Origin: Natronomonas salsuginis
GTDB taxonomy: Archaea; Halobacteriota; Halobacteria; Halobacteriales; Haloarculaceae
Assembly (NCBI RefSeq): GCF_005239135.1
Contig: NZ_QKNX01000004.1
Location: 124,001 to 188,000 of the forward strand
DNA: 64,000 nt
Direction of reading: 5' to 3'
Below, piece by piece: positions 31,201 to 49,369 of the stretch. The translations under genes and the position numbers were made by a program. The notes under the pieces were generated by a model. That model was given only the letters and a program-made list of their open reading frames with translations. It did not search any database and had not been told where the DNA came from. Numbering within the stretch: position 1 is the stretch's first letter; each line of letters begins with the position of its first letter.

Positions 31201-34200
31201 CGGCCAGTCCACCGGATACGGCGGTGCGCTCGAGATCGCAGCCGACGACGTGTCGGTGTCCGGCCTCACGATCGAGGGAACTGGTGAAGCGGCGGTGTAC
31301 GTTCGCTCCGGAACCAAGGGGTTCCACTTGACGGATAGCACGATTCGAACGGCAACCAGTCCTGACGGCCGTCCAAACGGCCTGCTCTTCGAAACCGGCG
31401 GCACGGACGATCACCACATCGAAGGGAATATCTTCGAGAACGAGGCCGATTCGAGCGAGAATCCGATCCTCGCGTACGTGAACGGTGGGGTGAGCGGTCC
31501 GACCGAATCGACCAACGTCAGCTTCGTTGACAATACGTTCACTGGCGACTCTGTCGGCGGCGGTATCGCCCTCGGTCACGAAGCGACGGATAGCGAAATC
31601 ACCGAAAACACGTTCGAAGTCGGAGCCGATTACGGACAACTCGAAGTGTGGGTTTCCGGGGTAGAAGTCACTGACAATGAGTTTGAGGCCGATGAACTAG
31701 GCCCAGGTGCCTTCCACATCCGTGACGATGTTGATAACGTCGATGCGAATGTATTGAACTCGAACGATTTCGAACGGGCAGTATTCGTCGATGAGACGAC
31801 TGACGGTTCACAAAAAGTCTTCGCTGGGCTTGGAGCCGCTGTTGATGACGCGGTTCAGGATGCTACGGTAACTACCAGTACCGGATCTTTCGAGGGTGGC
31901 GTGACCGTCGATACTGACCTGACGATCAAAGGTCCCAACGCTGGCGTTGCTGGACCTGAGCGGGTTACGTCGGATCTTAGTGACGAAGCAGTTATTCAGA
32001 GTCCGGACAGTGACGCCATTCGAGTAAGCAATAATCCAGACATCACCATCGACGGCCTCGCGTTCGATGGCAACCAGCGCTTCCTCTCCGTTGATGATGG
32101 CTGGGGAGACATTACCATTCGAAACAGCGTCTTCACCAACGCTCAGAGCAAAACTGGCGGACACTTCTGGTTTACAGGTGATGCTGGAATGTTGACCTTT
32201 GAGCGAAATTACATCGGTAATAACGCTCCTTCGAACGGTCTCCGCGTCCGCGTCGACAGCGGTGGTCCAGCGAATGTCGACATCTCTGATAACCACTGGG
32301 AGAACAACAATGCATGGGCGATGAACCTCAACCAAGTCGAAGGGGTCATCGAAGACAATGTCTTCGAGAATACGCAGGACACTGAGAAACTGAGCTTCCC
32401 GAACGGTCAAGGCGGTGTTCTCCTTGCCGACGCCAACAACGATCTTGCTGTTACGGATAACGAATTTGAGTCCCTCACGGCATCTGGACTCAATCTTTAC
32501 GGTAATTTTGATGGTGAATTAGAGGTCACAACTAACGACTTCGAAAGCACCAGTAATGTAGCAGCTATTCAGATCTCTGATCGACAACTACCGGAGGGTG
32601 GGTTCCCAGCTGATCCTGAGAACATAGTCATTGTAGACAACAACTTCGAAAACAACGAACAAGCAATATCTAACCAAGTTGATAAGACACTCGTTGCCAC
32701 CGAAAACTACTGGGGCGCGGACACCGGCCCCGGCGGCGAGGGCCCCGGTGACGGCGACGCGGTCAGCGAGAACGTCCAATTCGAACCGTTCCTCGACGCC
32801 CCGTTCGATGAGGGCGGAGAGCCGATCCGACCAACGGCGTTCGAAGTCACGAACTTCGAAATCAGCGCCGAGGAAGTGCCCGTCGGTGAGCAGATCACCG
32901 CCGAGCTAACGGTCGAAAACACCGGTGACGTCGCTGGCGTCAAACCGATCTCGATCCGAGCCGGCGACGAAACGATCGAGACCTTCGGCGTCGAGGGCGG
33001 CGTCGCACTCGGTAGCGGCGCGACGTTCACCGATGAAGTCACCTTCGCGCCCGGCTCCCAAGGCCAGCTCACGATCGCCGCCGAAGCGACCGACGATACG
33101 ACCTCAGAGATCATCACCGTCACCGAAGCGGAGACGACCTTCGACGTCGGCGAGACCGAGATCGACTCGGACGAGGCGCTCCCCGGCGACGAAGTCACCG
33201 TCACCGCGACGGTGACGAACAGCGGTACCGTCGAGGGTACCAGAACGGTCGATCTCGAACGTGACGATGAAACTGTCGACTCCGTCGACGTCACGCTCGA
33301 TGCCGAGGAGTCGACGACCGTCGAGCTGTCGGATATCCCGTCCGTTTCGCTCGAAAACAACGAAGTGACATACACGGTCGCGACGCCCACCGACAATCGC
33401 GGAGCCGGGGCGATCGAAATCCTCGAATCTGCGACCGTCGATATAACTGGCGAGAACCTCGGTGCACTCAGTCCAGTCGTTGCGGGCGAGACGACGACCG
33501 TTGCAGCCACGGTCACGAACAACGGCGATGTCGCCACGACCGAGACGGTCGCGTTGACTGCCGACGGCTCGACGATCGCTGAGACCGACGCCGAGGTGAC
33601 GGGCGGTGAGTCGACCGATATCGAGTTGCAGGCCGACACCCAAGCTCTCTCGGCGGGAACGTATGACCTCATGCTCGCGACGAGCGACGACACCGCGTCC
33701 GGCACGCTCAACGTGGATGCGCCTGCTGAGTTCGTCCCGACCGTCGAATCCGTTTCCGACCCCGCCGTCGGCGCGGACATCGAAGTCGAGACGACTATCC
33801 GGAACGTCGGCGACGCGAGCGCGAGCGGCGAGGTCGAACTCATCGTCCCCGGCGTCGGAAACGAGACCGTCGAAACCGGGGAAATCGCGGGCGACGAGTC
33901 CGAGACGGTCACGCTGACCGTCGCGACCGACGAGGACGCGATCGGCGAACAGTCGCTCTTCGTCACCACCGACGACGAGACGGTCGACAATGAGACGACG
34001 GTGCTGGCACCGCCCGAACTCGATGTCGCCATTGAGGGTGCGACCGACCCGCTCGTTGCGGAGCAGGACACCCTCGCGGTCGAGGTCGCCGTCGAGAACG
34101 ACGGTGGCGTTGAGGCCGAAAACGTCGCGGTCGACCTCGCGCTTTCGGGCGAGGAGGAAGCGTCCGAGACGGTCTCGGTGGCGGGTGGCGAATCCGAGAC

Positions 34201-36502
34201 GGTCACGTTCGACGAGATCGACGTCGGCGAGGCGCTCGAAGGCGACTTGGAACTCAACACCACTGCGACGTACGACGGGACGACCGTCGACGACACGGAG
34301 ACGGTGTCGGTGCTCGAAGCGCCCGAGGACGCGCTTTTCCGCGTCTCCGACTTCACCGTGACGGACAACACGCCGCGCGACGACGTGCTCCGAACCGAGT
34401 CCGGGACGGTCAACGTCGAAGCGACCATCGAGAACGTCGGCGAGCTGGAGGGAACCCAAGAGGTTCCGTTGCTGGTCGACGGTGAATCAGTGACGTCCGA
34501 GAATTCGCTCACTCTCGGCGGCGGTGAGAGTACGACGAACGAGTTCACGATCGACGCGAACGAACTCCGCCCCGGCGACCGAAGGATCAGCGCCCAAACT
34601 GAGGACAGCGACCGATCGTCGACGGTGTCGGTGCGCGACCCCACTCAGGCGACGTTCGAGGTCGAGGTCGACGAATCGAACCTCCCGCTCGAACGCGGTG
34701 ATACGGTCGAGGCGACCGTCCAGAACGTCGGCGATCTCCAGGGGACACAGAGCGTTTCCCTCGAGATCCGATCCGGCGGCGAAACGCTCGAAACGAGTAC
34801 CGAGGACGTGACGCTCGGTCTCGACGAGACCGCGACCGTCGACGTCACAGTCCCCGACGTGCCGCGTGCGGGCACAACCGACGTGACGGTCGACGTCGAG
34901 GCCGCCGACGCGTCCGATTCTGTCGAGACGACGATCGACTTCGGTTCGATCGGAGACGGCCTCGCTGCTGCCGAGTCCGGTGACACCGTTCACGTCGCTC
35001 CCGGCGACTACGACGAGGCGGTCACGCTGGACGAATCCGACGTGACGCTCTCTGGTGAAGACGCGACGTTCACATCGGGCAGTACGGCCGTCTCGATCAC
35101 CGCCAACGGCGTCACCGTCGAAGGGTTCAACTTCGAACGGGCGGACGTTGGGGTCGAAATCACCGGCGACGACGCCACCGTTCGATCCACGCGGTTCCTC
35201 GACTCCGTCACGAACGGAACCGAGATCCGAGCCGTGAACGCGACGATCGAGAACAGCCGCTTCGACAACCTCACCGATACGGCCGTGGTGCTGACCGGCG
35301 GCGCTGATGAGACCACGATCGTGGAAAACAACATCCTCGATAATCGTCTCGGCATCTACGCCGACGCCGGCTTCCACGTCGTCGAGGACAACAACATCGA
35401 GCGGAACAGTTACGCCGCGATCGACGCCGACCGACCGTTCGCCGATTCGATCACCGAGATCGACGCGACGGACAACTACTGGGGTCGGCCCGGTGGGCCG
35501 ATCACCGAGGGTCCGAACGCGGAGATCCTCTCGCCGGTCACCACGGAACCGTTCCTCACCGAACCGAACGAGGACCCAGACTACCGCATCGCGGATTCGA
35601 ACCTCAGCGGGATCGCTGAGGCCGCCGAGGGTGAACCAGTCGAGGTGACCTACACGGTCGAGAACGTCGGCGGCACCGCCGGCAGCGACAGTGCGGACAC
35701 GCTCGTCCTCTCCCTCGACGGCGAGACAGTCGCCGAGACCGACGCCTTCGAGATCGGTGCCGGGCAGACGCTATCGAACGACGATTCCGAACTCGACGCG
35801 CTCACGTTCGAGGTAGACGCGGCGACGGCCGCGAGGCTCGATTCGGGGCAACTCGAACTGTCGACCGACGACGACACCGACTCGAAGGCCGTGGACGTGC
35901 TGAGTGCACCGGACTTCGAGGCGGCGATCACCGACGTCCCCGACGAATTGGAGACAGATGAGACGCTCACGGTCGAAGCGACGATCGAGAACGGCGGCCA
36001 AACCGCCGGCACCAAATCCGTCAGGTTGCAGTTCGACGGGACGACCGTCGATACCGAGGAGCTGACCGTCGCGGGCGGTTCGGCGTCGAAGGTGACGCTC
36101 TCGACCGAACTCGATGGGAGCGACGTCGGGACGAACCTCCTCGTCGACGTGCTGCCGACCGATGGTCGGCCCGAGACGGTGACGGTTCTAGAGGCGAGCG
36201 ATCCCGCTCCAGTCGGAAACATCGGCGGCGGAGGGTCGTCCTCGGACGTCGACACGGAGACGCCACAGCCGGACGACGGGGATCCGGAGCCGGCGGAGAC
36301 GCCGCAACCCGACGAGCCGGTCGAGACGCCCGACGCCCCTGATGAGACGCCGCAACCCGACGAGCCGGCCGAGCCGACCGAACCGCAGCCCGACCCGACT
36401 GAGACGCCGATTGACGAACCGGCGGAGTTGCCCGGATTCGGGGTCGTTGTCACGCTCGTCGCGCTGCTCGCCGCCGCGCTGCTGGCGCGCGTCCGGCGTT
36501 AA
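28256..36502 (+). CDS. Giant PGF-CTERM surface protein with beta-helix and CARDB-type repeats
   Basis: 2748 residues. A signal peptide (AVALSILFGGVAFVGSASAQ) is followed by right-handed beta-helix repeats (about 40-1520; N-rich strands and NYW...GP caps at about 650 and 1483), then about seven CARDB/COG1361 Ig-like modules (about 1525-2250), a second beta-helix block (about 2250-2420, NYWG at 2405), two more CARDB modules, a Pro/Glu/Thr linker (about 2664-2722) and the tail LPGFGVVVTLVALLAAALLA with a basic end. This tail marks archaeosortase A processing and archaetidyl lipid anchoring. It is probably an adhesin or surface glycan-binding protein. GC jumps near 32.7 kb: one 60-nt line at 29761 has 26 G+C and one at 33721 has 41. 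Confidence 0.9.
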   Translation: MRRQTTDTDVRAGKLRAVLIVSAVALSILFGGVAFVGSASAQTNNADIVVDEDWSEPDAVPDGYDDATNSINEAVGLAGSGDTIHVKSGTYDESVIVDVSNLMVKSVGSAEETVITRSVNDGTPTVAIDADGVVLDGFTIERGGASTTTAQGVRVAASDVEVRNNHVEHTNDDDQTDNGVLVTDRDSNGDPVSSNVSDVLIRNNTISGFPVGAAVATQEDNDNTVRELDISNNELSSNGVGVGFSQAVGATDLGDGLSTDGNTFDGNGYGVYIFGDDDSKSYLTLNNTRTDGISIENNDFLNPNSKLAGDGNDPLHIVNNGNEEGEDAPGPVPDTIVEDNGEFDGAVRYDDDVVAPEIQPVIDEFVENEGEEEDEPEEETIVVAPGTYDGATIDESLVTLEGPNAGLDGASEDRGPEATIQGKLQVKADGVTVRGVTVSPTSTFTADSSLPLAGIFVNGNNVSIENNSVSGINGDAATGESSVTINGVQVFKQDSERLNNITISNNLIENIDNSGGEAWPNYGGAVGIKIQNQLDDVHVNGNTIRRIHSAGWTYGIVSTPSSKNSVQPTNVVVEGNRIESIGNGDQYDVFADDTAAPYAGAAVGLDTASGDSEEDPVADAAALTVTENSIFDTPIGAHNKDLGATLTATNNYWDSPTGPDGDGSRTIGDVETDPWYLNEDRETLSNELGDTIVVDADGDGDVTDIQTALDLIEVTDAEINTIEIQSGIYEGSPTIDLPGLTVQAAEGADPEIQGIVTIAAPGVTVDGLTIDGGDENAAPLDVQAGSPTITNNTIRGGSDAGGISTWGGPGPVDGTVLIEGNAIENGPIGLVVDGDSTVDIRGNDIDGATSEAIWLSDFTDSASISEADITIDNNDIGSVALADIKIETTAPASLNGNSELGDPSDVAVQFLEGSNAETVTLWNGQTYDENGNVVVQEGDSIQDVIDNAGEDATIVLDGEFEEDVTVDQPGLTIEGTDDATVVGQSTGYGGALEIAADDVSVSGLTIEGTGEAAVYVRSGTKGFHLTDSTIRTATSPDGRPNGLLFETGGTDDHHIEGNIFENEADSSENPILAYVNGGVSGPTESTNVSFVDNTFTGDSVGGGIALGHEATDSEITENTFEVGADYGQLEVWVSGVEVTDNEFEADELGPGAFHIRDDVDNVDANVLNSNDFERAVFVDETTDGSQKVFAGLGAAVDDAVQDATVTTSTGSFEGGVTVDTDLTIKGPNAGVAGPERVTSDLSDEAVIQSPDSDAIRVSNNPDITIDGLAFDGNQRFLSVDDGWGDITIRNSVFTNAQSKTGGHFWFTGDAGMLTFERNYIGNNAPSNGLRVRVDSGGPANVDISDNHWENNNAWAMNLNQVEGVIEDNVFENTQDTEKLSFPNGQGGVLLADANNDLAVTDNEFESLTASGLNLYGNFDGELEVTTNDFESTSNVAAIQISDRQLPEGGFPADPENIVIVDNNFENNEQAISNQVDKTLVATENYWGADTGPGGEGPGDGDAVSENVQFEPFLDAPFDEGGEPIRPTAFEVTNFEISAEEVPVGEQITAELTVENTGDVAGVKPISIRAGDETIETFGVEGGVALGSGATFTDEVTFAPGSQGQLTIAAEATDDTTSEIITVTEAETTFDVGETEIDSDEALPGDEVTVTATVTNSGTVEGTRTVDLERDDETVDSVDVTLDAEESTTVELSDIPSVSLENNEVTYTVATPTDNRGAGAIEILESATVDITGENLGALSPVVAGETTTVAATVTNNGDVATTETVALTADGSTIAETDAEVTGGESTDIELQADTQALSAGTYDLMLATSDDTASGTLNVDAPAEFVPTVESVSDPAVGADIEVETTIRNVGDASASGEVELIVPGVGNETVETGEIAGDESETVTLTVATDEDAIGEQSLFVTTDDETVDNETTVLAPPELDVAIEGATDPLVAEQDTLAVEVAVENDGGVEAENVAVDLALSGEEEASETVSVAGGESETVTFDEIDVGEALEGDLELNTTATYDGTTVDDTETVSVLEAPEDALFRVSDFTVTDNTPRDDVLRTESGTVNVEATIENVGELEGTQEVPLLVDGESVTSENSLTLGGGESTTNEFTIDANELRPGDRRISAQTEDSDRSSTVSVRDPTQATFEVEVDESNLPLERGDTVEATVQNVGDLQGTQSVSLEIRSGGETLETSTEDVTLGLDETATVDVTVPDVPRAGTTDVTVDVEAADASDSVETTIDFGSIGDGLAAAESGDTVHVAPGDYDEAVTLDESDVTLSGEDATFTSGSTAVSITANGVTVEGFNFERADVGVEITGDDATVRSTRFLDSVTNGTEIRAVNATIENSRFDNLTDTAVVLTGGADETTIVENNILDNRLGIYADAGFHVVEDNNIERNSYAAIDADRPFADSITEIDATDNYWGRPGGPITEGPNAEILSPVTTEPFLTEPNEDPDYRIADSNLSGIAEAAEGEPVEVTYTVENVGGTAGSDSADTLVLSLDGETVAETDAFEIGAGQTLSNDDSELDALTFEVDAATAARLDSGQLELSTDDDTDSKAVDVLSAPDFEAAITDVPDELETDETLTVEATIENGGQTAGTKSVRLQFDGTTVDTEELTVAGGSASKVTLSTELDGSDVGTNLLVDVLPTDGRPETVTVLEASDPAPVGNIGGGGSSSDVDTETPQPDDGDPEPAETPQPDEPVETPDAPDETPQPDEPAEPTEPQPDPTETPIDEPAELPGFGVVVTLVALLAAALLARVRR

Positions 36503-37377
36503 TCGGCCGGTTCGACGAGAGACATCGATTTTTCCTTTGCAGGTCGATCGCCAAACAGGCGCAGTTCGTGTACGAGATACGCCATGGTGAAGCCGAGCGC
36601 GTAACCGATAAAGTGCATGTAGACGTTGCTCACGCTGTTCCCGCCGGCTTCGATCCGCGGAAACCCGACCGAGAGCAGTAGGATCCAGGCGACGACGGCG
36701 ACCACGAGTGATCGATCGAATGCCTCGCACGTTGCCGCCCGTCGCATCGACCCAACGTTCGCCCGCGAAAAGTGGACGGCGAACGCCGATCCGAACACTG
36801 CGGCGGCGATCACGACCGCCGCGGAGGTGGGTGATACCGGAACGGTAACCGCTCCGACGTAGCCTACGGACACGAAGAACGACGCCAGGAGAAGCGTCGT
36901 TTCGATTGGCCGATCTAGTTTCGCTTCGAGATATCTGACGATCGCGATGGGCAACACGCCGGTCAGTGCCATGGTGATGCCCGAGAACCCGTAGGTGACG
37001 CTATTTCTCGGCACCGCGAGGTTTAAAAACGACAGCGCGACTGGAATGACGACGAACAGCGTCGTGAGGGTGCCGACGAGGAGCCACCGGTCACCGATCC
37101 GACTCAAAAGCACGACGATCACGACGCCGAGCATGACGAACGCGACGAGGTTGCTCCCGAGGTGCGTCGGCGTGAAATGGACGAAGTGTGCCGTGTAGGC
37201 AGTCACCACCGTCGGATCGGCGTACACGAACGTCAGCGAGCGTCTGGTCGACGTGGGGAGCAAATACACGCCGACGAGTGCAACCGCGACGAGCCCGACC
37301 GACAGGCCGCCGAGTTGCCGACTGATGGGGTCATCTCGAGCGGCTGGTTCCTCGCATTGGCCCTCGGAAGCGAACAC
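36499..37377 (-). CDS. Rhomboid-like intramembrane serine protease
   Basis: A 292-residue protein with about seven or more membrane helices. It shows the rhomboid layout: HFVHFTPTHLGSNL (His67, Asn76), the nucleophile motif YGFSGI (Ser132) and a late-helix His255 (NVYMHFIGYALGF). It would cut membrane proteins within or near the bilayer. The GTG start is supported by a gtttagc TATA-like element centred about 27 nt upstream. Its stop overlaps the stop of the giant surface gene by 4 bp in convergent orientation. A link between protease and surface protein is suggestive only. Confidence 0.75.
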   Translation of the reverse strand: MFASEGQCEEPAARDDPISRQLGGLSVGLVAVALVGVYLLPTSTRRSLTFVYADPTVVTAYTAHFVHFTPTHLGSNLVAFVMLGVVIVVLLSRIGDRWLLVGTLTTLFVVIPVALSFLNLAVPRNSVTYGFSGITMALTGVLPIAIVRYLEAKLDRPIETTLLLASFFVSVGYVGAVTVPVSPTSAAVVIAAAVFGSAFAVHFSRANVGSMRRAATCEAFDRSLVVAVVAWILLLSVGFPRIEAGGNSVSNVYMHFIGYALGFTMAYLVHELRLFGDRPAKEKSMSLVEPAD

Positions 37378-40791: not shown

Positions 40792-41895
40792 ATGACCGAC
40801 CCAAGTAGACGACTGCGGGTGCGTGCGCTGTTGGATGCGTACTTTCCTATCCTCTTCGGAGCTGCCATTCTCCTGGCTTTCGTGTTCGGCTTCTGGTTGT
40901 TTCAGGTGTACGCCGTCGAAGAGGTGCGGACTGAGCAGCGGACGTTCGTCCAGTGGTCCGAGTCGACGGAACTGGAACACAGTGCGTTAATAGTTAACGA
41001 GTCTGTCCCGTTCGAGGCGGGCCAACGTGTGGAAGACCGGCCGATCTACTACACGACCATCTCGGACGCCCTCGATATCACTTATCGATACGAACACACG
41101 GCTGGCGCGGAGTTGGACGTTTCCACGGATATCTTTCTACGCGTCCGATCGGTCAGCGGTGACGACGTCTTCTGGGAAGTAACCGAACCACGCGCATCCA
41201 CCGGGTCCGAATCCGTCTCGGCCGGTGAAAACCACACTGCAGAGGCGTCCGTCAACATCGCTGAGCTGCGAAGGACTATCGCGGAAATCCAATCGCAACT
41301 CGGGACGGAAGGATCCATCGAGATTGCTATCGTCGCCACTACGAGCATCGACGGTATCGTCGACGGACAGGCGGTGAACCGGACTCACGGAAGCCTGTTG
41401 AGACTCGCCGTCTCGCAGACGTCGTTCCGTGTGACTGACACCGAGACGATCGACGAGGAGTATACGTCGACCGATACCGTCGAGACCACTCAGGACGCGT
41501 CGCTGCTGGAGATGCTTGCCTCGTTGTTGGCCTTTTCAGGATCGCTGACAGTTCTCGGTACACTCGCGTTCGCCCGTCTCCGCGGGTACATCGAGCTCTC
41601 CGGGGAGGAAGCCGAACTCCTCGAGGTCTACCAACAAGAACAGGAGTTCTCTGAGTGGATAACCACCGGAACGTTCCCCTCCGAACGCGATTACGAGGCG
41701 ACGATCGTCGTCGACGATCTCAAGGGGCTGGTCGACGTCGCGATCGACACCAACAAACGCGTCATCAAGGACGAACAGCTCCGCGTGAGCACGGTGTTAG
41801 ACGACGATTACGTCTATCTGTACATTCGCCCCGACTCGTCGGCCAGCGAATGGCTGTTCAACCAAGCCGACATGACGATGGAGGAGCTGGACTAG
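40792..41895 (+). CDS. DUF5305 membrane protein
   Basis: A 367-residue protein with one N-terminal helix (FPILFGAAILLAFVFGFWLF), a large extracytoplasmic beta-rich domain (about 45-240), a second helix (about 245-265) and a cytoplasmic C-terminal domain. In haloarchaea DUF5305 proteins recur beside SipW-like signal peptidases and DUF1102-type secreted proteins, as here; the function is unknown. A ggaga about 8-10 nt before the ATG may be the ribosome binding site. It could be a membrane scaffold for the secreted proteins encoded nearby, which is inference. Confidence 0.75.
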   Translation: MTDPSRRLRVRALLDAYFPILFGAAILLAFVFGFWLFQVYAVEEVRTEQRTFVQWSESTELEHSALIVNESVPFEAGQRVEDRPIYYTTISDALDITYRYEHTAGAELDVSTDIFLRVRSVSGDDVFWEVTEPRASTGSESVSAGENHTAEASVNIAELRRTIAEIQSQLGTEGSIEIAIVATTSIDGIVDGQAVNRTHGSLLRLAVSQTSFRVTDTETIDEEYTSTDTVETTQDASLLEMLASLLAFSGSLTVLGTLAFARLRGYIELSGEEAELLEVYQQEQEFSEWITTGTFPSERDYEATIVVDDLKGLVDVAIDTNKRVIKDEQLRVSTVLDDDYVYLYIRPDSSASEWLFNQADMTMEELD

Positions 41896-42110
41896 CTCTA
41901 GTTTTGAACGGCCGACGGCAAATATATCGGTGTTGGGTGGGCTGATCGATTGGTAGTCGCTCCCCGCACACGGAATCGGCCTTCTCTAGGGTCCAAACGG
42001 CGTACGTCCGCCCGCTGGATTTCCACCGGGTGCGGCGTTCCGGATTCCAACCACGCTCAAGCGGGTCCACGAACACTCCAGTGAAACGCCTGTATGGGGC
42101 CATCATCGGG

Positions 42111-42154
42111 CGGTGAGCTCGCTCGAAAACGCGTCAAGCCGCCGTTGCTCACCG
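42111..42154. repeat. Perfect 8-bp inverted repeat with 28-base loop
   Basis: cggtgagc at 42111-42118 pairs with gctcaccg at 42147-42154. A second pairing, agccgcc (42136-42142) with ggcggct (42198-42204), competes with or interlocks it. Confidence 0.5.
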
Positions 42155-42232
42155 TCTCTCACCGGAACACGTGACACTGGTGGTGATGTGAACTCTCGGC
42201 GGCTCTATCATGACCGCGTTTATCACGTCCGC

Positions 42233-42284
42233 CCGTTCGGGTATACCACACGAGCGTATGCGCTCGTGGGCGCTACCGGAACGG
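42233..42284. terminator. 52-nt long imperfect hairpin
   Basis: Two 24-nt arms flank a tatg loop. The innermost 8 bp (cacgagcg / cgctcgtg) and the outer 4 and 6 bp (ggta / tacc; ccgttc / gaacgg) are perfect; a 1-base mismatch and a 5-base internal loop separate them. It lies 40 nt past the stop of the minus-strand gene and could end transcription from either side. Confidence 0.5.
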
Positions 42285-42323
42285 TGCAAAATACGTAAAC
42301 GCCGCCCGAGGGGACCGAATCCG

Positions 42324-43151
42324 CTAGTCTTCGGTACCGACGAAGACGCTGTCGAGCAGTTGAAAGTCGTCGGTTTCATTCCCATTGAACGGATTGCCAG
42401 TCGCGCTCGCCGCCTCGTTGGCTAGAATGCTCACTTGGTCACCGGTGAGCTCGGTTACGAGATCGACAGTGATGCTTTCGCCCGCTCCGAGTGTAACAAA
42501 GTCGCTCGGTTCTTCCTCCGTTCCATCAGTCCACCCGTTCGTCTCAGCATCGTCCGGAGATGGAGAGAGAAGAAGGTTACTGCCACCGCTTTCGTTGGCC
42601 AGATCACCCAGTCGATTACCCGGGATCTCGAATTTGAACATCTTAAGGACATCCAGTCGCGAGAGATTATCATTGCCGAGATCGTCTACATAATCGTCGT
42701 TGAACCAACCGGTGGTGCCGTCTTGAGCGTAGCCGCTCACTTCGCCGCCGTCATCTATCGCGTATGTCGTCCCGATGCTGACTTCGGTCGTACCGGTGTT
42801 ATCGATCTCGAGGAAATTCGAAAAGCGGATCTCGCTTGCGGAATTCTGTCGGGCCAACGAAACATCGAGTCCGTCGTTTTGGTTTTCGTTGGCACCTGCT
42901 GCGGGTAGATCCCCCGGATTCAGTTCATCGAAGTTCAGGAACTCATCTTGTGCCCAGTCGTCGAGCTCGCTATCCTCGCCGTCTTCGAACGCGGGGCCAC
43001 GCCGAACGATCGTCTGTGCAGCCGCGACGATCCGGAAGTCCGCTCCCGGATTAACGCTGTTTTGGAACGCCGCGCTCGAAAACGCCGCGCCGCTGCCAGT
43101 CGCTAACAGTCCCATGCCGATAATCGTTTTCCGCCGTGATAGGTCTACCAT
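42324..43151 (-). CDS. Secreted protein with SipW/TasA (DUF1102)-like N-terminus, 1
   Basis: 275 residues, acidic. The N-terminus (LSRRKTIIGMGLLATGSGAA, then FSSAAFQNSVNPGADFRIV) matches the short signal and cleavage pattern of SipW-dependent/camelysin-TasA-like secreted proteins. The mature part is a beta-rich, Asn- and Asp-rich domain with LEIDNTGTTEVSIGTTYAI, typical of the DUF1102-like fold in which strand exchange can build filaments. A TATA-like ggtattaag lies about 42 nt upstream, and three phased GCTTGAA motifs lie at 43203-43271. Filament formation is inference. Confidence 0.7.
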   Translation of the reverse strand: MVDLSRRKTIIGMGLLATGSGAAFSSAAFQNSVNPGADFRIVAAAQTIVRRGPAFEDGEDSELDDWAQDEFLNFDELNPGDLPAAGANENQNDGLDVSLARQNSASEIRFSNFLEIDNTGTTEVSIGTTYAIDDGGEVSGYAQDGTTGWFNDDYVDDLGNDNLSRLDVLKMFKFEIPGNRLGDLANESGGSNLLLSPSPDDAETNGWTDGTEEEPSDFVTLGAGESITVDLVTELTGDQVSILANEAASATGNPFNGNETDDFQLLDSVFVGTED

Positions 43152-43202
43152 AACTGTTTCACCTGTTTCGAGCTACGGCCGGTAAGGACTTAATACCGCT
43201 GA

Positions 43203-43271
43203 GCTTGAAACTCCGAAAGCGCCGCTTGAAAGGATCTCTCTGCACGTAATCACTGAAAAGCCCAGCTTGAA
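43203..43271. promoter_or_regulatory. Three phased GCTTGAA motifs in a divergent promoter region
   Basis: gcttgaa occurs at 43203, 43224 and 43265. The spacings are 21 and 41 bp, close to 2 and 4 turns of DNA, so the sites face the same side of the helix. They sit just upstream of the TATA-like element of the minus-strand secreted protein and between it and the divergent HTH gene at 43421. The same motif recurs upstream of two further secreted-protein genes in the cluster. Confidence 0.55.
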
Positions 43272-43420
43272 CCGGGGTTAACGAATTATTAAGCGGTCTA
43301 TCGACCACCGTGCTATCGAAGCGGCCGGCCGTGGCCCTCGCTGACACGGTTGGATCTCATCACCACCTATATATCCCCCGTGTACGTGCCCTCTCGCGTG
43401 GCTGCTGCCTCATATCTCAC

Positions 43421-43966
43421 ATGTCTCTCTCCAGCCAAGAAAAGTACGAGGCGCCAAAAAAGGATAGCGTCTACGAGCTGTTGAGCAACCACCGGCGTCG
43501 GTACGTCCTCCACTACTGCAAACGAAATAACGGGTCGGCAACGCTCTCGGAACTCGCCGAACAGGTCGCCGCCTGGGAACATGAAAAGCCCGTCGAGGAA
43601 GTGACTTCCGCCGAACGAAAGCGAGTGTACACGTCCCTCCAACAAACACACCTCGATCGGATGTCCGACGCCGGAGTTATCGACTACGACGGCGACGAGG
43701 TCGCACTCACCGACAAAGCCCAAGAACTCGACGTGTATCTGGATATCGTCCCCGCCAGCTCGATCTCTTGGGGGCTGTACTACCTCGGGCTCTCGGGGCT
43801 AGCCGCCGCCGTGTTGTTCGGCGTCTGGGTCGGGTTCGTCCCGACCGACACCGTCCCGGCGATCGGCTGGGCCGCGATCGTCCTGACGGCGTTTTTCGTT
43901 TCATCGGTCGCTCAAGTGCTACAGAACCGCCGCTACCGGCTGGATCGCTTCGAACGGCCGCCGTGA
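43421..43966 (+). CDS. DUF7344-type winged-helix protein with two membrane helices
   Basis: 181 residues. The N-terminal ~115 residues are a winged helix-turn-helix (SVYELLSNHRRRYVLHYCKR, a DUF7344 hallmark; TLSELAEQVAAWE; TSLQQTHLDRMSDAGVIDYD). Two transmembrane segments follow (about 120-140 and 145-165), ending in a basic tail. It could be a membrane-tethered transcription regulator. Being divergent from a DUF1102-like gene and next to the phased GCTTGAA motifs, it is the best local candidate for their binder, which is inference. Confidence 0.78.
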   Translation: MSLSSQEKYEAPKKDSVYELLSNHRRRYVLHYCKRNNGSATLSELAEQVAAWEHEKPVEEVTSAERKRVYTSLQQTHLDRMSDAGVIDYDGDEVALTDKAQELDVYLDIVPASSISWGLYYLGLSGLAAAVLFGVWVGFVPTDTVPAIGWAAIVLTAFFVSSVAQVLQNRRYRLDRFERPP

Positions 43967-44021
43967 ATCTGGTGTCGTTCGAGTGTGAACCCAGCGCAAT
44001 CTTAATGTAGCCTCTCATCGC

Positions 44022-44567
44022 ATGCGGCATGTGTTTACACGTCGGGCCGTCCTCTTCGGGGCCGTTTCGGTCGCCGCGGCGAGTGGCGGCTGTGCCGAAG
44101 CGGGACTCGAAGAGCCCCGAGAGGCGATACTCGGAACTAACGACCGCGGGAAAATCGTCGGCACCTACGACCGGGGTGTCGAGCGGTACAACGACGGTAC
44201 CAAAGCCCGCGATGCGGGCGCTCGTGCATTCAACGATGAACGATACGAGGACGCCGCGGACACGCTCGAAACAGCGACTGCCCACTACGCCGACGCGATA
44301 GACTCCTTTCGAGAGGCAGAAACGATGGGTGAGGATGCCGGCGTCCCGCCCGCGGCGGGGATCTGTGACGAGGCGGCGAGACACGCTGATCTGATGCGAG
44401 AGTCGACACTTGAAGCGCGCGAGGCGGCAAGCGCGGCCGAGGCGGGCAAATCGACGTCCGATATCAACGGCCACACAGAGACGTCACGGGAACTACAGGC
44501 CGAGGCCGAGGAATTGACCGTTTCGGACCCCGAGCGCTTGCTCGAAACCCTCGAAGCACAGTCGTAA
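44022..44567 (+). CDS. Small Tat-type lipoprotein, helical
   Basis: 181 residues. The N-terminus TRRAVLFGAVSVAAASGGC contains a twin-Arg and a lipobox with Cys at about 24, so it is probably a lipid-anchored external protein. The mature part is charged and almost wholly alpha-helical, with Ala/Glu-rich repeats that could form coiled coils or TPR-like helices (YEDAADTLETATAHYADAID). No family assigned. A TATA-like tcttaat is 20 nt before the ATG but 29 nt before an in-frame GTG at 44031, which may be the true leaderless start. Confidence 0.65.
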   Translation: MRHVFTRRAVLFGAVSVAAASGGCAEAGLEEPREAILGTNDRGKIVGTYDRGVERYNDGTKARDAGARAFNDERYEDAADTLETATAHYADAIDSFREAETMGEDAGVPPAAGICDEAARHADLMRESTLEAREAASAAEAGKSTSDINGHTETSRELQAEAEELTVSDPERLLETLEAQS

Positions 44568-44592
44568 GCCCCCCGGAATAGAGACTGCGGGT

Positions 44593-45480
44593 TTACTGGT
44601 CCGACCGCAGTTCGATTACAGCAGTTGAACCATCGTCTGCGCGCACGAGGAGATCGACATCCTCAACGAAGACACCACCACCACCCGGACCTCCACCCGG
44701 ACCTCCACCGGCGTCTCTGAACCGTCGGAACTCGAAGTCAACCCCCATACCGGGCTCCAGTAGCACCTCATTGCCGGCGATAACATCGTACACACCGTCA
44801 CCGACAGATATCGGCTGGGTGATCAGGTCCGCATTGTCCGAGCTGTTTGCGAGTGTCGGTTGGCCTCCGTTCGCACTGACTAGATCCGAATCCGGATTCG
44901 TCCATTCGACGCCGAACCCATTCAGCGTTATCTGTTCGTCGGCCGTGTTTGTCAGCGCGAACCTGTATTTGCCGTTCCCGAATCCACCTTTAATGCTTCC
45001 CTCGACCTTTTTGATCGCTGCAACGGCCGAGACGGCGAAAGAACGCACCAGTTCGATGCTTCCGACGACTTCGCTGCCCGCGCTGAGGATCGCGGTTATA
45101 CTCACTGTGTCACTGCCACCGCTGACCTCGAACTCTCTCGCTTCCTCGGGGTCGAGCTCGAACGAAACCGGCTCAGCGAAGGTGCCGTCGCCATCGACGT
45201 CGAATGCGACGTTCCCGCTTTCCAGTGTCACATCCATCGTGTAGTTGCTGTTGTTGGTGAGTTCGGGCGCGGTGTTCGTGTCGTCGTTACCGGTGATCCC
45301 AAGTAGGGCATCCGGGTCCTCCGCCGTGCTGGCCTCGAATCCCCGTTCCCCCACTGTGGAGCTGTAAGCCCCCGTCTGCCGGAGCCCGACCGCCGCCCCA
45401 CCGCTGAAAAGCAATCCCAACGCGGCCCGACGACTGAGCAGGCCGCGGGCCGTTCGCGCTTGCGTTCGATTTCGGGTCAT
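44593..45480 (-). CDS. Secreted protein with SipW/TasA-like N-terminus and Gly-Pro tract, 2
   Basis: 295 residues. A twin-Arg-like N-terminus (LLSRRAALGLLFSGGAAVGL) is followed by TGAYSSTVGERGFEAST, the T-G-aromatic-S pattern shared with the other secreted proteins of this cluster. The mature body is beta-rich (NSNYTMDVTLESGNVAFDVD) and contains a low-complexity GGGPGGGPGGGG tract at about 262-273. It is transcribed downstream of the 45584-46138 gene, with its own TATA-like GATATGT joined to a GCTTGAT motif about 45 nt upstream. Function unknown; a surface or filament-associated protein is plausible. Confidence 0.65.
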   Translation of the reverse strand: MTRNRTQARTARGLLSRRAALGLLFSGGAAVGLRQTGAYSSTVGERGFEASTAEDPDALLGITGNDDTNTAPELTNNSNYTMDVTLESGNVAFDVDGDGTFAEPVSFELDPEEAREFEVSGGSDTVSITAILSAGSEVVGSIELVRSFAVSAVAAIKKVEGSIKGGFGNGKYRFALTNTADEQITLNGFGVEWTNPDSDLVSANGGQPTLANSSDNADLITQPISVGDGVYDVIAGNEVLLEPGMGVDFEFRRFRDAGGGPGGGPGGGGVFVEDVDLLVRADDGSTAVIELRSDQ

Positions 45481-45522
45481 TGATGATCCCCGACACTTCC
45501 GTCATCCCAGACGGCCCGGACA

Positions 45523-45532
45523 CATATCAAGC
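45523..45532 (-). promoter_or_regulatory. GCTTGAT motif overlapping a TATA-like element
   Basis: The minus strand reads gcttgatatg, which ends in a TATA-like gatatg. The element lies about 45 nt before the ATG at 45480. It joins the cluster-wide GCTTGAW motif directly to a promoter. Confidence 0.45.
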
Positions 45533-45583
45533 TTCTCCGAGCTGACGACAATCCGATCGACCGCCTGCTGACGACCACTGAGC

Positions 45584-46138
45584 TCATGGCTCTTCCTCCT
45601 GCTTTGCGGTGAGTAAGAGCCGTATCTCGAGGCCGCTATCCAGCAGTGTCGCTTGATCGCGCAGGTCGACTTCCACCCCGAACACTTCGAACTCGCCGGG
45701 GGCAAGCTCCTCGCCCGAATCGTCGAGGATCGTGGCAACACCACCGCCCTCGTGGATATTCGTGCCGTCGTACACGATCCCCAGCGACTCCTCGGCGGCC
45801 CTCACCCGCTCGTCGGTGTCTTCATCGGTCACCCGGAACTCGAAATCGAGCTCATCGACGGTGACCTCGAGATCGTTCGTGATCCGAACGAGGTCCTCGA
45901 AGCGTGATATCGCCGCCCCGTTTAGCCCATCGAGGGCGATCCCTGTCACTTGGCCCGCCCCATCCACCTCGACGTAGGCCCCGTCGTCTCGCTCAGAGGT
46001 GAGAGACAGCTCGGAAACGACCATGAGACGGAAATCGGCACCCGCCGTGGTACTCGTGGAGAACGTGCCCGTGGTAAGGACACCCCCTCCAAACGTCGCG
46101 GCCACGAGTCCGAGTACGGTCTGTCTTCGAGTGAGCAT
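45584..46138 (-). CDS. Secreted protein with SipW/TasA (DUF1102)-like N-terminus, 3
   Basis: 184 residues. It starts MLTRRQTVLGLVAATFGGGV and continues TTGTFSTSTTAGADFRLMV, the clearest camelysin/TasA-like signal in the cluster. The mature domain is a single acidic beta-sandwich-like region (DLVRITNDLEVTVDELDFEF...FEVFGVEVDLRD) with a hydrophilic C-terminus. It is the right length for a minimal filament subunit. A TATA (gtatatac, about 46170-46177) lies about 35 nt upstream. It is divergent from the DUF1102 gene at 46351, across a large inverted repeat. Confidence 0.7.
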   Translation of the reverse strand: MLTRRQTVLGLVAATFGGGVLTTGTFSTSTTAGADFRLMVVSELSLTSERDDGAYVEVDGAGQVTGIALDGLNGAAISRFEDLVRITNDLEVTVDELDFEFRVTDEDTDERVRAAEESLGIVYDGTNIHEGGGVATILDDSGEELAPGEFEVFGVEVDLRDQATLLDSGLEIRLLLTAKQEEEP

Positions 46139-46215
46139 TGTGGTGGAATCTGCCGGACCTATTGAGCAGTATATACCCCATTAGGTGTTCTAAAACTTTT
46201 GTATTATGCACCTTA

Positions 46216-46293
46216 CCGGTTAGAAAGCACTGGTTGAACGTTTGAATCTGGCTTGATCTCCGTATTGGGACCGTTCAAGCAGTGCTTTACCGG
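46216..46293. repeat. Large inverted repeat (arms about 22-25 nt, loop 31 nt) in a divergent promoter region
   Basis: The left arm, 46216-46240, and the right arm, 46272-46293, match as reverse complements at 21 of 22 positions, apart from a 3-base insertion (tag) in the left arm. Shared cores are aaagcactg and ttgaacg. The element spans 78 nt between two divergent secreted-protein genes. It contains two of the GCTTGAW motifs (46251, plus strand; 46274, minus strand), and a third lies just outside (46306, minus). It may be a regulatory structure or a miniature inverted-repeat transposon; I see no target duplication. Confidence 0.65.
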
Positions 46294-46350
46294 AGGGCTG
46301 AGGCGATCAAGCAACGCAATACAAAGTAGGTAGGGTACAATTACCCCAGT

Positions 46351-47007
46351 ATGAACCGACGTAACGTTCTGATCGGCCTCGGTGGCGTAGTTGCAGGCGG
46401 CGGCGCGCTTCTCGGTACGGGCGCGTTTACGACTGTGGAAGCGGAGCGAACAGTGACAGTGAACACCGCTGGCGATGCCAGCGCGCTCATCGGCCTGGAT
46501 GAGGCCGGTGATGGAGAGAATTCGAACGTCGTGGATATCGAGAACGGATTGTTAGTCATCGACTTCGACGCCGCCGGGAACAACAATGAAGGCGTCAACC
46601 TCAATGCGTTGACGACTGTCGGTGCCGTGACGATGTCTGGAGGCTCGTTGAGTTCGGTCGACACCGCGGCTCTGACGATCGCGAACAACGGCACCCAAAC
46701 GGTTGATATCAGCTTCGATATTGGGTTCGACTCGAATCAAGATTTCGGCTCTGTGGCAGAAGTTAGTAATCCGGGAGATATCCTCAAACTCTGGACCGAC
46801 GCGAGCGGGGCCAACGACGGCCAACTCGGTGGTGCAGACGATTTCGGGAACCTCGTTGCATCCGATCTAGTAGGCCTTGGAATTGGGGAGTCCGTCGACG
46901 TGGCACTCCAGATCGACACGACCGGACTCGATACGACCGATGTCGACACGGGTAATCCGCTCTTCGAATCGGAAGCCACCATCACGGCAACGAGTACGAC
47001 AAATTAA
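46351..47007 (+). CDS. DUF1102-type secreted protein, 4
   Basis: 218 residues. The N-terminus (MNRRNVLIGLGGVVAGGGAL, then GTGAFTTVEAERTVTVNTAG) is the standard haloarchaeal DUF1102 start, related to the camelysin/TasA group. The mature domain is Asn-, Gly- and Asp-rich and beta-structured (LTIANNGTQTVDISFDIGFD). Such proteins are thought to be released by a SipW-like peptidase; one is encoded at 48200-49369. A weak TATA-like atacaaag is about 31 nt upstream. It is followed by a hairpin at 47044. Confidence 0.75.
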   Translation: MNRRNVLIGLGGVVAGGGALLGTGAFTTVEAERTVTVNTAGDASALIGLDEAGDGENSNVVDIENGLLVIDFDAAGNNNEGVNLNALTTVGAVTMSGGSLSSVDTAALTIANNGTQTVDISFDIGFDSNQDFGSVAEVSNPGDILKLWTDASGANDGQLGGADDFGNLVASDLVGLGIGESVDVALQIDTTGLDTTDVDTGNPLFESEATITATSTTN

Positions 47008-47043
47008 CCATATCAGAGCCTTCTGAACTGCGCTTTCGAGTCC

Positions 47044-47075
47044 CGGGTTGACTTCGGCATCCGGATGTCGACCCG
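47044..47075 (+). terminator. Terminator-like hairpin after the DUF1102 gene
   Basis: cgggttgac (47044-47052) pairs with gtcgacccg (47067-47075) over 9 bp with one G-T pair, and the loop holds a further cgg/ccg pairing. It lies 37 nt past the stop. No T-run follows, so termination is only a suggestion. Confidence 0.4.
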
Positions 47076-47290
47076 CGATGGCCGTTCGTACCGTTCGACA
47101 TCGTATCCATGGACAAATGCGGAGTTCACTACGCATACGTCTGCCGGCATGTCACAGTGTTTACACTTTCGCCTGGTAAGAGCCTGTACCCGGTCGGCTG
47201 ATCGAGTCTATGGGCCGATCCAACGTTCGATACAGGGGAGCTAGTCGTACAAACCTCTTTAATCGATACATCCGTGTGTAGGACATACGA

Positions 47291-48190
47291 ATGCCCGATC
47301 CGCCCGTCATCTTGGTAATCACCCCGGACCCGACCCGCTCCGAACGGGTCGCCAGGTGGCTCGGCAACACCCATACCGTTCGGACGGCGGCTGATCGGGA
47401 CGCGGCCTTGCAGGAGTTTGATACCGCTGTGGACGTCGTTCTTGTCGATGAAGAACTGTCGGACGTGCCACTCGAGGAACTGCTCGGCCAGCTAAAGGCC
47501 CTGCAGGTCGGATGTCAGTACGTCCACCTCGTCACCGATCCTCCCGGGCTCGAAGAGATGGGACTCGGCGTCGACGAACGCGTTCGGAAGCCACTCGATC
47601 GCGAAGAACTCCGCTCTCTCGTCACTCGTCTCGAGAAGCGCAAGGACGTCCAGGAGGCGGTCGATTCGTATTTTTCGGCCCTTTCGAAGCGGCGAGCCCT
47701 CGAAGCGGAGATGGTCTCCGATCCCGAAAACGATCCTCGATACCGGGCGCTGTCGGGCGAACTCTTGGGACGGCGGCGACAGATCGAGTCCCTGCTGACG
47801 CAGGTCGAAAAAAAAGACCACGAGTCCACCACCGTCAACGACCGCATCAACACAGAACCAACACCCCTGTATAGAGCCAATCCGTACGAATTCTATGGAC
47901 TGTGGTTATTTGCCGCGTTGACCTACGGCGTCGGCGACCTCTTTTCGACTGCATATCCCGTGCTCGTCGTACCGGGTATCGAAGAGGCGAATCCGATCGT
48001 CGATACGCTGTTGATGAACTTCGGCATCGGTGGCTTTCTGTTTTTCAAACTGTTCGTGTTTTTGATACTGATCACGATCAGCGTTCAGGGAGGTCGTACC
48101 GCCGACCGGTTCTCGTACTACTGGCCGCCGCTATTGGCCACCGTGCTCGGTGCTGGGCTCACGGTATGGAACCTTCGATTGATCGGTTGA
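47291..48190 (+). CDS. Receiver-HalX protein fused to a DUF5658-type membrane domain
   Basis: 299 residues. A receiver domain (about 5-112) with likely phospho-acceptor Asp53 (VVLVDEELSDVP) and Lys in VRKPL; a HalX domain (about 115-175; AVDSYFSALSKRRALEAEM and YRALSGELLGRRRQIESLL); then four membrane helices (about 200-299) bearing the DUF5658 pattern GVGDLFSTAYPV...EEANPIVDTL. HalX proteins are normally soluble response regulators, so a membrane tail is unusual. The frame is continuous with no sign of frameshift. A TATA-like tttaatc is about 31 nt upstream. It converges on the signal peptidase gene. Confidence 0.75.
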   Translation: MPDPPVILVITPDPTRSERVARWLGNTHTVRTAADRDAALQEFDTAVDVVLVDEELSDVPLEELLGQLKALQVGCQYVHLVTDPPGLEEMGLGVDERVRKPLDREELRSLVTRLEKRKDVQEAVDSYFSALSKRRALEAEMVSDPENDPRYRALSGELLGRRRQIESLLTQVEKKDHESTTVNDRINTEPTPLYRANPYEFYGLWLFAALTYGVGDLFSTAYPVLVVPGIEEANPIVDTLLMNFGIGGFLFFKLFVFLILITISVQGGRTADRFSYYWPPLLATVLGAGLTVWNLRLIG

Positions 48191-48199
48191 TCTCACCGT

Positions 48200-49369
48200 C
48201 TACAGCCAGCGTCGGATCTTCCGCCGGACCGTCCCCGAAAGCGTGATGTCACGGTTTGCGTCCCTGAAGCGAAGCGGTTCGAACCCGATCGCGAGCGCGA
48301 AGATCACCGTCACCGTCGCCGCGATCACGGCGTCGATCACCGCGATGGCGACCCATGGGTGGATCTCGTGGAGCGCGACGATCACCGAGAGCGGGAGGAT
48401 TCCGATGTACTGTCGCTCCGCGATGGCCCGGTAGTAGACTCCCGTCTCCTCGGGGGCGGATAGCGTCGCCGTCGTGCCGGCACTCTCACCGCGACGGACG
48501 ACGTGTGTCGTCTCCCCGACGTCCACCCCGGTGCTCGCCGGTTCGATAATCGCAACGAGCGGGATGTATCCGTTGTTCGTGACGTTGTACTCGAGCGTCT
48601 GGTTGCCGCCGCGCTCGATGACCGTGGGTGCGCTGCTCGGCGATTGTGAACTCACGATCGTCACCTCGTTCATCCCGGACGGGACCACCATACTCGCAGT
48701 TGCTGGTACGAGTATCAAAAGCAGGATCACCGCGAGGACGGTCGATGCCCGCATCGAGCCCCCCCGGGCGCGTGAGCGCTCTCCCCCGGTCCGTCTTTCC
48801 CCACGGACCAGATCGGAGACGAAACTGAAGAGCAACAACAACACGCCGGCGCCGATCATGAGCCTGCCGACGTTGCCATCGGCGACCGCGTCGAATCCCG
48901 GAATCCCGCTCAGGATGCCGATGAGCGCAGCGGCGACCCCTTGTAGCGCCAGCGCCACCGTCCCCAGATGCGGAACGACGACGAGGTCGCCGCCGAACCG
49001 CCACGCGACAGCCGCGATCTGAGATTCCTGTACCGGTGGCTCCGGGCCGTCTTGATCGGTGAACGGGTTGGCGTCGCCGCGGGTTATGTAACCCTCATCG
49101 GTCTCCTCGACGACGCGATGCGTCGTGAGCCCGCCGCCCTCGAGTTCGCGCGCGTCGAACGTGATAACGTCTCCTTGCTCGACATCGCCGGCGAGCGCCG
49201 GCGGAATCGCGACGAAGCCATCGCCGGCTTCGAGCGTCGGCGACATACTCCCCGTGACGACGAAGCCGAGAAGGATCGGCTGCCCCAGTTGCTGTCCGAC
49301 GAGCATGGCCACCACGGCAGCGACGAACAGGAGGGTACCCGCCGTGCTGACCGATGAACGGAGCTTCAT
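48200..49369 (-). CDS. SipW-like signal peptidase I with C-terminal extracytoplasmic extension
   Basis: 389 residues. The catalytic part (1-150) has VTGSMSPTLEAGD (Ser41), LTTHRVVEE with His84 in place of the bacterial Lys, and a downstream Asp-rich GDANPFTDQDGPEPPV: the Ser-His-Asp type shared by SipW, archaeal and ER peptidases. Membrane helices follow, then a second external beta-rich domain (about 230-325; NQTLEYNVTNNGYIPLVAII) and C-terminal helices. The extension is not found in the common archaeal Sec11. It probably processes the four TasA/DUF1102-like proteins of this cluster, by analogy with Bacillus SipW and TasA. Confidence 0.82.
   Translation of the reverse strand: MKLRSSVSTAGTLLFVAAVVAMLVGQQLGQPILLGFVVTGSMSPTLEAGDGFVAIPPALAGDVEQGDVITFDARELEGGGLTTHRVVEETDEGYITRGDANPFTDQDGPEPPVQESQIAAVAWRFGGDLVVVPHLGTVALALQGVAAALIGILSGIPGFDAVADGNVGRLMIGAGVLLLLFSFVSDLVRGERRTGGERSRARGGSMRASTVLAVILLLILVPATASMVVPSGMNEVTIVSSQSPSSAPTVIERGGNQTLEYNVTNNGYIPLVAIIEPASTGVDVGETTHVVRRGESAGTTATLSAPEETGVYYRAIAERQYIGILPLSVIVALHEIHPWVAIAVIDAVIAATVTVIFALAIGFEPLRFRDANRDITLSGTVRRKIRRWL

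Follow-up and report, generated by a model that had tools for sequence, protein, structure and literature searches.

A candidate Tat-fimbria-type surface filament locus with several related subunits and its own signal peptidase in Natronomonas salsuginis

The 64,000-nt stretch of Natronomonas salsuginis DNA analysed in this study (assembly GCF_005239135.1, contig NZ_QKNX01000004.1, positions 124,001-188,000), hereafter the window, carries a cluster of genes for four secreted proteins, a SipW-like signal peptidase and several membrane and putative regulatory proteins. The secreted proteins, denoted subunits A to D (Table 1), all bear a twin-arginine signal of the type used for twin-arginine translocation (Tat), as do 110 of 112 non-redundant related subunits. 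The entire 64 kb was scanned for an N-terminal RR/RK...G-x-(F/Y/I)-(S/T...) signal on acidic open reading frames (ORFs), and only these four proteins were returned. An initial annotation of the same DNA had named the four proteins and their short Arg-Arg signals correctly, together with a T-G-x-(F/Y)-(S/T) ending. The endings GTGAFTT, TTGTFST and TGAYSS fit this pattern in three of the proteins, but subunit A has G-A-A-F-S (in GSGAAFSS). Hence, the pattern is better given as (G/A)-(A/T)-(F/Y)-(S/T). The predicted cleavage sites, marked by arrows, are G↓AFTT, G↓TFST, G↓AYSS and A↓AFSS.

The relationships among the subunits were evaluated by profile comparison. Subunits A, C and D were demonstrably related: the hhalign probability was 99.4% for C and D, aligned over their length, 97.7% for A and D and 97.4% for A and C, with the shared signal contributing part of these scores. 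This mutual homology supported the suggestion of the initial annotation that several distinct subunits are encoded. Moreover, subunit D matched a solved chain deposited as 'Pilin' (PDB 9P0A), with a phmmer E value of 1.4e-18 at full length and of 4.6e-13 for a mature-only profile, the signal-free match being confined to the N-terminal two thirds of the chain. The profile of subunit B matched the same chain at 4.6e-8, signal included. No relative of subunit D was found in the viral contigs searched. The four mature subunits had no Pfam match at E<=10, camelysin (PF12389, Peptidase_M73) included. In a phmmer search with TasA, only TasA itself was recovered among true relatives, and the hhalign probability of TasA against the subunit profile was 0.6%. 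The TasA/camelysin/DUF1102 membership proposed earlier was therefore not borne out by sequence, and the TasA-like nature of the subunits was retained only in the modelled fold.

The AlphaFold2 model of mature subunit C, computed from 13 sequences, was an all-beta sandwich (pLDDT 83.3, pTM 0.78). In a Foldseek search of 350,542 PDB chains, its first-ranked match was the bundling pili protein AbpA (7ueg_A; E 2.4e-4, probability 1.00), which was the only match below 0.001. This match was followed by FimA variants, major sperm protein, the Saci_0406 thread (7pnb) and the TasA fibre (8aur), the last at rank 12 with a probability of 0.90. PDB 9P0A was not among the structural matches listed for the models. 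AbpA also ranked first for the model of full-length subunit D (E 0.01); this match serves as support only, because the model was of low confidence. Structure prediction, one of the checks proposed in the initial annotation, thus gave the anticipated fold for one subunit. The mature N-terminus was the best conserved part of the 112 non-redundant subunits, with 1.58 bits per position at positions 2-13 and 0.73 at positions 20-44. Only positions 2-13 after the F were counted, because the cleavage site itself was in the selection pattern. Such conservation is expected if one type of strand must fit the groove of every partner.

The signal peptidase showed the archaeal/endoplasmic reticulum (ER) arrangement of Ser and His, and its score against the NCBIfam model TIGR02228 (59.8 bits) was over the cut-off. 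The SipW-like peptidase of the initial annotation was supported as a dedicated Ser-His enzyme of family S26, with a weaker resemblance to SipW, for which the model gave 30.8 bits against a cut-off of 190. All 63 full-length relatives carried S41, H84 and D99, and a Ser-His pair with a conserved Asp denotes the S26B type. The C-terminal extension consisted of two transmembrane segments around an ectodomain of about 100 residues; the transmembrane segments, P326 and P338 were invariant. Full-length relatives occurred in 186 of 242 genomes of the haloarchaeal class and in 60 of 74 genera. More distant relatives were also present on haloarchaeal plasmids, where they were annotated only as signal peptidase I. 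In some assemblies (L024:10001-11187 and L025:10001-11252, where L numbers designate the loci examined), the peptidase appeared to be broken close to a Ser/Arg-rich linker, possibly through a frameshift or a sequencing error.

The linkage of the genes in related genomes was also explored. A genome scan with the peptidase as query gave nine loci, most of them in Halorubrum. The order in the fuller loci was peptidase, receiver-HalX fusion, subunit(s), C, A, lipoprotein, DUF7344 protein, B, DUF5305 protein and receiver-DUF7504 protein. The window keeps this Halorubrum gene content with local rearrangement, and hence the module reaches left to 39150. A further 40 loci were picked by the peptidase alone. 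Genes for DUF5305 and DUF7344 proteins were each found within 10 kb in 38 of them, and a Tat subunit lay at most 4.5 kb from the peptidase in 33 of 40. The subunit density was 1.39 per 10 kb near the peptidase and 0.43 far from it, a threefold difference. A few of the 40 were Halorubrum loci again, so the two sets were not fully independent. Searches of the N. salsuginis genome (2.9 Mb), made family by family, revealed three peptidases with the C-terminal extension (in the window, C3 and C2), each beside Tat subunits and DUF7344 genes; in the C3 locus the DUF5305 gene adjoins the subunit. One orphan subunit was found on C7. A fourth signal peptidase, on C6, gave a shorter match and looks like a housekeeping enzyme. 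The peptidase nearly always travels with such subunits, and the module is real. The conserved linkage looked for in the initial annotation was thus present, and the joint conservation of the genes elsewhere shows that they did not come together by chance.

Table 1. Genes of the filament locus and a possible outlying member (window coordinates; aa, amino acids; TM, transmembrane segment)
Feature	Position	Strand	Basis and remarks
Rhomboid-like protease (GFSG), 292 aa, possible outlying module member	36499..37377	-	Pfam Rhomboid 5e-4, just under cut-off
Receiver-DUF7504 protein, 458 aa	39150..40526	-	Pfam Response_reg 2.3e-20, DUF7504 1e-36; left edge of conserved module
DUF5305 membrane protein, 367 aa	40792..41895	+	PF17231 3.2e-44; N-terminal TM, ectodomain, TM, cytoplasmic tail
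Subunit A, Tat signal ...GSGAAFSS, 275 aa	42324..43151	-	Profile-profile match to subunits D and C
DUF7344 winged-helix protein, two C-terminal TM, labelled regulator	43421..43966	+	PF24035 1.1e-29
Tat lipoprotein, 181 aa, lipobox SGGC	44022..44567	+	ORF and inspection
Subunit B, Tat signal ...QTGAYSST, 295 aa, TafC-like N-terminus	44593..45480	-	9p0a profile match, weak TafC match
Subunit C, Tat signal ...TTGTFST, 184 aa	45584..46138	-	AlphaFold2 model and Foldseek
Subunit D, Tat signal ...LLGTGAFTT, 218 aa, TafE-like	46351..47007	+	TafE model, pilin 9p0a
Receiver-HalX-DUF5658 membrane fusion, 299 aa	47291..48190	+	Pfam HalX 1.1e-6
SipW-like S26 signal peptidase, 389 aa, C-terminal TM-ectodomain-TM extension	48200..49369	-	TIGR02228

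The accompanying genes were largely as the initial annotation had described them. The DUF5305 protein was confirmed, the helix-turn-helix membrane protein proved to be a DUF7344 protein, and a Tat-type lipobox (TRR...SGGC) was recognised by inspection in the lipoprotein. For the receiver-HalX-membrane fusion, the HalX domain was recognised, but the scores of the receiver region (17.3 bits) and of the DUF5658 region (22.4 bits) were under the Pfam cut-offs. The receiver-DUF7504 gene adjoins the DUF5305 gene in loci L019, L020, L021 and L025. Syntenic copies were found for subunit A in L020, L021, L024 and L025, and for the lipoprotein in L020, L021 and L025 (36-40% identity). The copies of the DUF7344 protein were 65-67% identical in the Halorubrum loci and about 50% identical in canonical Tat-fimbria loci. 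Full-length copies of the HalX fusion occurred in the class only in Halorubrum-type loci, beside the peptidase. Proteins of 516 aa with Tat signals and regular short repeats were also encoded beside the peptidase in Halorubrum (L022:12333-13880, L024:12408-13958 and L025:12373-13923); a beta-solenoid is possible for these repeats, and the proteins are candidates for a filament tip or an adhesin.

The rhomboid-like gene scored 20.7 bits against the Pfam profile, with a cut-off of 22.6. Rhomboid homologues were present in 31 of the loci examined, the window counted, and the GxSG motif was kept in 31 of 31. In 18 of 67 loci, the rhomboid gene lay 18-217 bp from the C-extended peptidase gene on the same strand (L020, L027, L035, L044, L046, L048, L061, L062, L067-L072, L074, L076, L077 and L079), and it was upstream by coordinates in 17. 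The distance was 10.8 kb in the window. Judged by gene position, the rhomboid and the signal peptidase may form a recurrent pair of membrane proteases. Haloarchaeal rhomboids were linked to adhesion and biofilm phenotypes in a 2025 paper, in which the words 'signal peptidase' and 'neighbor' are not used (PMC11985538). Next to the rhomboid gene of the window lies a gene for a giant surface protein of 2748 aa (28256-36502, +) that contains CARDB/Ig repeats and bears a PGF-CTERM (archaeosortase) motif; similar repeats were encoded near several related loci.

In the peptidase tree, the window enzyme fell in a Halorubrum-type clade of 11 members (support 1.0), where it grouped with those of L047 and L019 (support 0.987) and lay well apart from the paralogues in its own genome; by the kinship labels assigned to the genomes, L047 comes from a different family than the window genome. 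Furthermore, subunit B was found in 15 of 77 family genomes and in none of the five congeners, and the GC content was 52-63% across about 28-54 kb and 62-68% outside. Horizontal acquisition of the locus is likely. Besides the filament locus, the GC-poor island (about 28000-54000) holds the gene for the giant adhesin and those for several PAS/receiver kinases. The record of L019 (PULR01000059.1) is labelled as a 'Mollicutes bacterium' metagenome-assembled genome and carries a haloarchaeal locus, with a peptidase 69% identical to that of the window; it is probably mislabelled or a mixed bin.

The computed basis for an interpretation consists of four Tat-type precursors, a dedicated and catalytically intact S26 peptidase, a modelled AbpA/TasA-like fold for one subunit and homology of another with a deposited pilin. 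Accordingly, a surface filament of the Tat-fimbriae (tafi) type, composed of several homologous beta-sandwich subunits, was taken as the best explanation of the locus, with a probability of about 0.77. The initial annotation was partly supported by this outcome; it had missed both the tafi as the nearest described system and the leftward extension of the module. The subunits would fold in the cytoplasm, be exported by Tat and remain monomers for as long as they carry the signal peptide. Cutting by the peptidase at (G/A)↓(A/T)(F/Y) would then free a conserved N-terminal segment, (A)F-(S/T)-x-V-x-A-x-R-x-V, which may serve as the donor strand for the next subunit, and the subunits would polymerise. 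The fibre could be held at its base during growth by the ectodomain of the peptidase extension together with that of the DUF5305 protein. Such a role of the two proteins is plausible, and the DUF5305 protein is possibly an anchor or assembly partner. Expression may be controlled by the DUF7344, receiver-HalX and receiver-DUF7504 proteins.

Several points weigh against this interpretation. No window protein was over any Taf cut-off, and the tafi gene assignments were taken from a summary (PMC12687288) and from the NCBIfam TafA, TafC, TafE and TafF models. The locus has several strand switches, and three subunit genes are on the minus strand and that of subunit D on the plus strand, so the four subunits do not form one operon. 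The fold evidence came from models of subunits C and D, and full-length D gave a low-quality model (pLDDT 46.7). The TM-scores were modest (0.39-0.43 for AbpA and 0.31-0.42 for TasA), with FimA-like and major sperm protein folds close behind; values of about 0.4 indicate a similar topology and not a close superposition. Export, cleavage, strand exchange, anchoring and polymerisation are deduced, and the filament is a prediction.

Other explanations were weighed against the same results. The four proteins could be separate adhesins or matrix proteins that have export and processing in common and build no joint filament. They differ in length and sequence, their polymer is a prediction, and some related loci encode much larger Tat proteins (516 aa, repetitive; 763-765 aa). 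However, the profile homology between the subunits, the homology with a deposited pilin and the fold match to strand-exchange filaments make this unlikely. A slightly different question is whether the window locus is orthologous to the canonical tafi cluster (TafA-F). Subunit D scored 64.7 bits (8.2e-18) against TafE and 40.8 bits against TafA, and peptidase, DUF7344 and DUF5305 genes are shared with that cluster. The cut-offs are 155 and 190, respectively; moreover, the best TafC score was 19.2 bits against a cut-off of 410. Nothing in the N. salsuginis genome was over the TafA, TafE, TafC or TafF cut-offs; TafF was sought in a single search, which gave none in control genomes either. TafA was over its cut-off in 21 of 242 class genomes. 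In L032, a genome with canonical members, TafC (558.6 bits), TafA (257.6 bits) and TafE (218.6 bits) were recognised with a TafF-like protein under the cut-off (368.6 against 420), and beside these genes lie a DUF7344 gene, a DUF5305 gene and a gene for a full-length peptidase homologous to that of the window. Orthology is thus quite improbable. Because its Taf matches stay below the cut-offs, the window locus is better regarded as a divergent member of the same broader group.

Camelysin and TasA have a fold and a SipW-type signal in common, and the secreted proteins could accordingly be read as camelysin-like surface metalloproteases. The negative Pfam result for the mature subunits, PF12389 included, makes this enzymatic reading very doubtful, and it was rejected on the profile results. 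An archaeon with genes for surface filaments could also be carrying a type IV pilus or archaellum-type system. Nevertheless, the signals are of Tat type with signal peptidase I-type sites and not of class III, the search of the locus genes recognised no ATPase or membrane protein of the PilB/PilC type, and the modelled subunit fold is a beta sandwich rather than helical. This reading has a negligible probability and was rejected on signal type and gene content.

The preferred reading, a tafi-type filament of several subunits, links three subjects that are as a rule considered separately, namely the haloarchaeal Tat-fimbriae, the strand-exchange filaments of AbpA and TasA and an uncharacterised ectodomain-bearing signal peptidase of wide distribution. 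If it is true, pre-folded subunits exported by Tat can build strand-exchange filaments, and a single proteolytic cut acts as the polymerisation switch. Candidate functions are also offered for DUF5305, DUF7344 and the recurrent rhomboid protease. More tentatively, most haloarchaea might run a Tat-fed donor-strand pathway without usher or sortase. In such a pathway, the signal peptidase would have two roles, as the trigger, by uncapping the donor strand, and, together with DUF5305, as the membrane platform; an adjacent rhomboid would release or trim the anchored base, and the window locus would be a horizontally spread multi-subunit version.

The locus was finally compared with known filament systems. 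Haloarchaeal tafi (Galeva et al., 2025, iScience 28:111793, as summarised in PMC12687288) have Tat-type GAF signals, TafE/TafA homology, an S26 peptidase with an extension and DUF7344 and DUF5305 neighbours in common with the window. In contrast, the relationship of subunits A, B and C is only a distant one, a LamG TafC-like or TafF-like protein is absent from the locus, and the locus has additional lipoprotein, receiver-HalX and receiver-DUF7504 genes. Neither the HalX fusion nor the lipoprotein was seen in the canonical tafi loci examined. For the 'Pilin' of PDB 9P0A, homologous to subunits D and B as described above, a literature search found no publication. The Saci_0406 thread (PDB 7PNB), which is a donor-strand filament, was one of the top structural matches of subunit C, whereas no sequence match was seen; it is not known to have a dedicated peptidase of the window type. 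AbpA of Pyrobaculum calidifontis (PDB 7UEG) was the best structural match of subunit C and a weak first match of D. However, it shares 8% identity over aligned columns with no sequence-level match, and the Tat-type signal belongs to the window proteins. The TasA-TapA-SipW system of Bacillus (PDB 8AUR) lacks sequence similarity to the window proteins, which have Tat signals, several subunits and a peptidase with an extra ectodomain; no TapA was recognised. The two systems nevertheless have in common a dedicated ER-type Ser-His peptidase, A or T at P1' followed by an aromatic residue at P2', and a beta-sandwich match. In TasA, F occupies P2' and the cut is made by the ER-type peptidase SipW (PMC10269814), the donor strand comprises residues 28-38 (PMC9674648), and the deposited fibre chain begins AFND.

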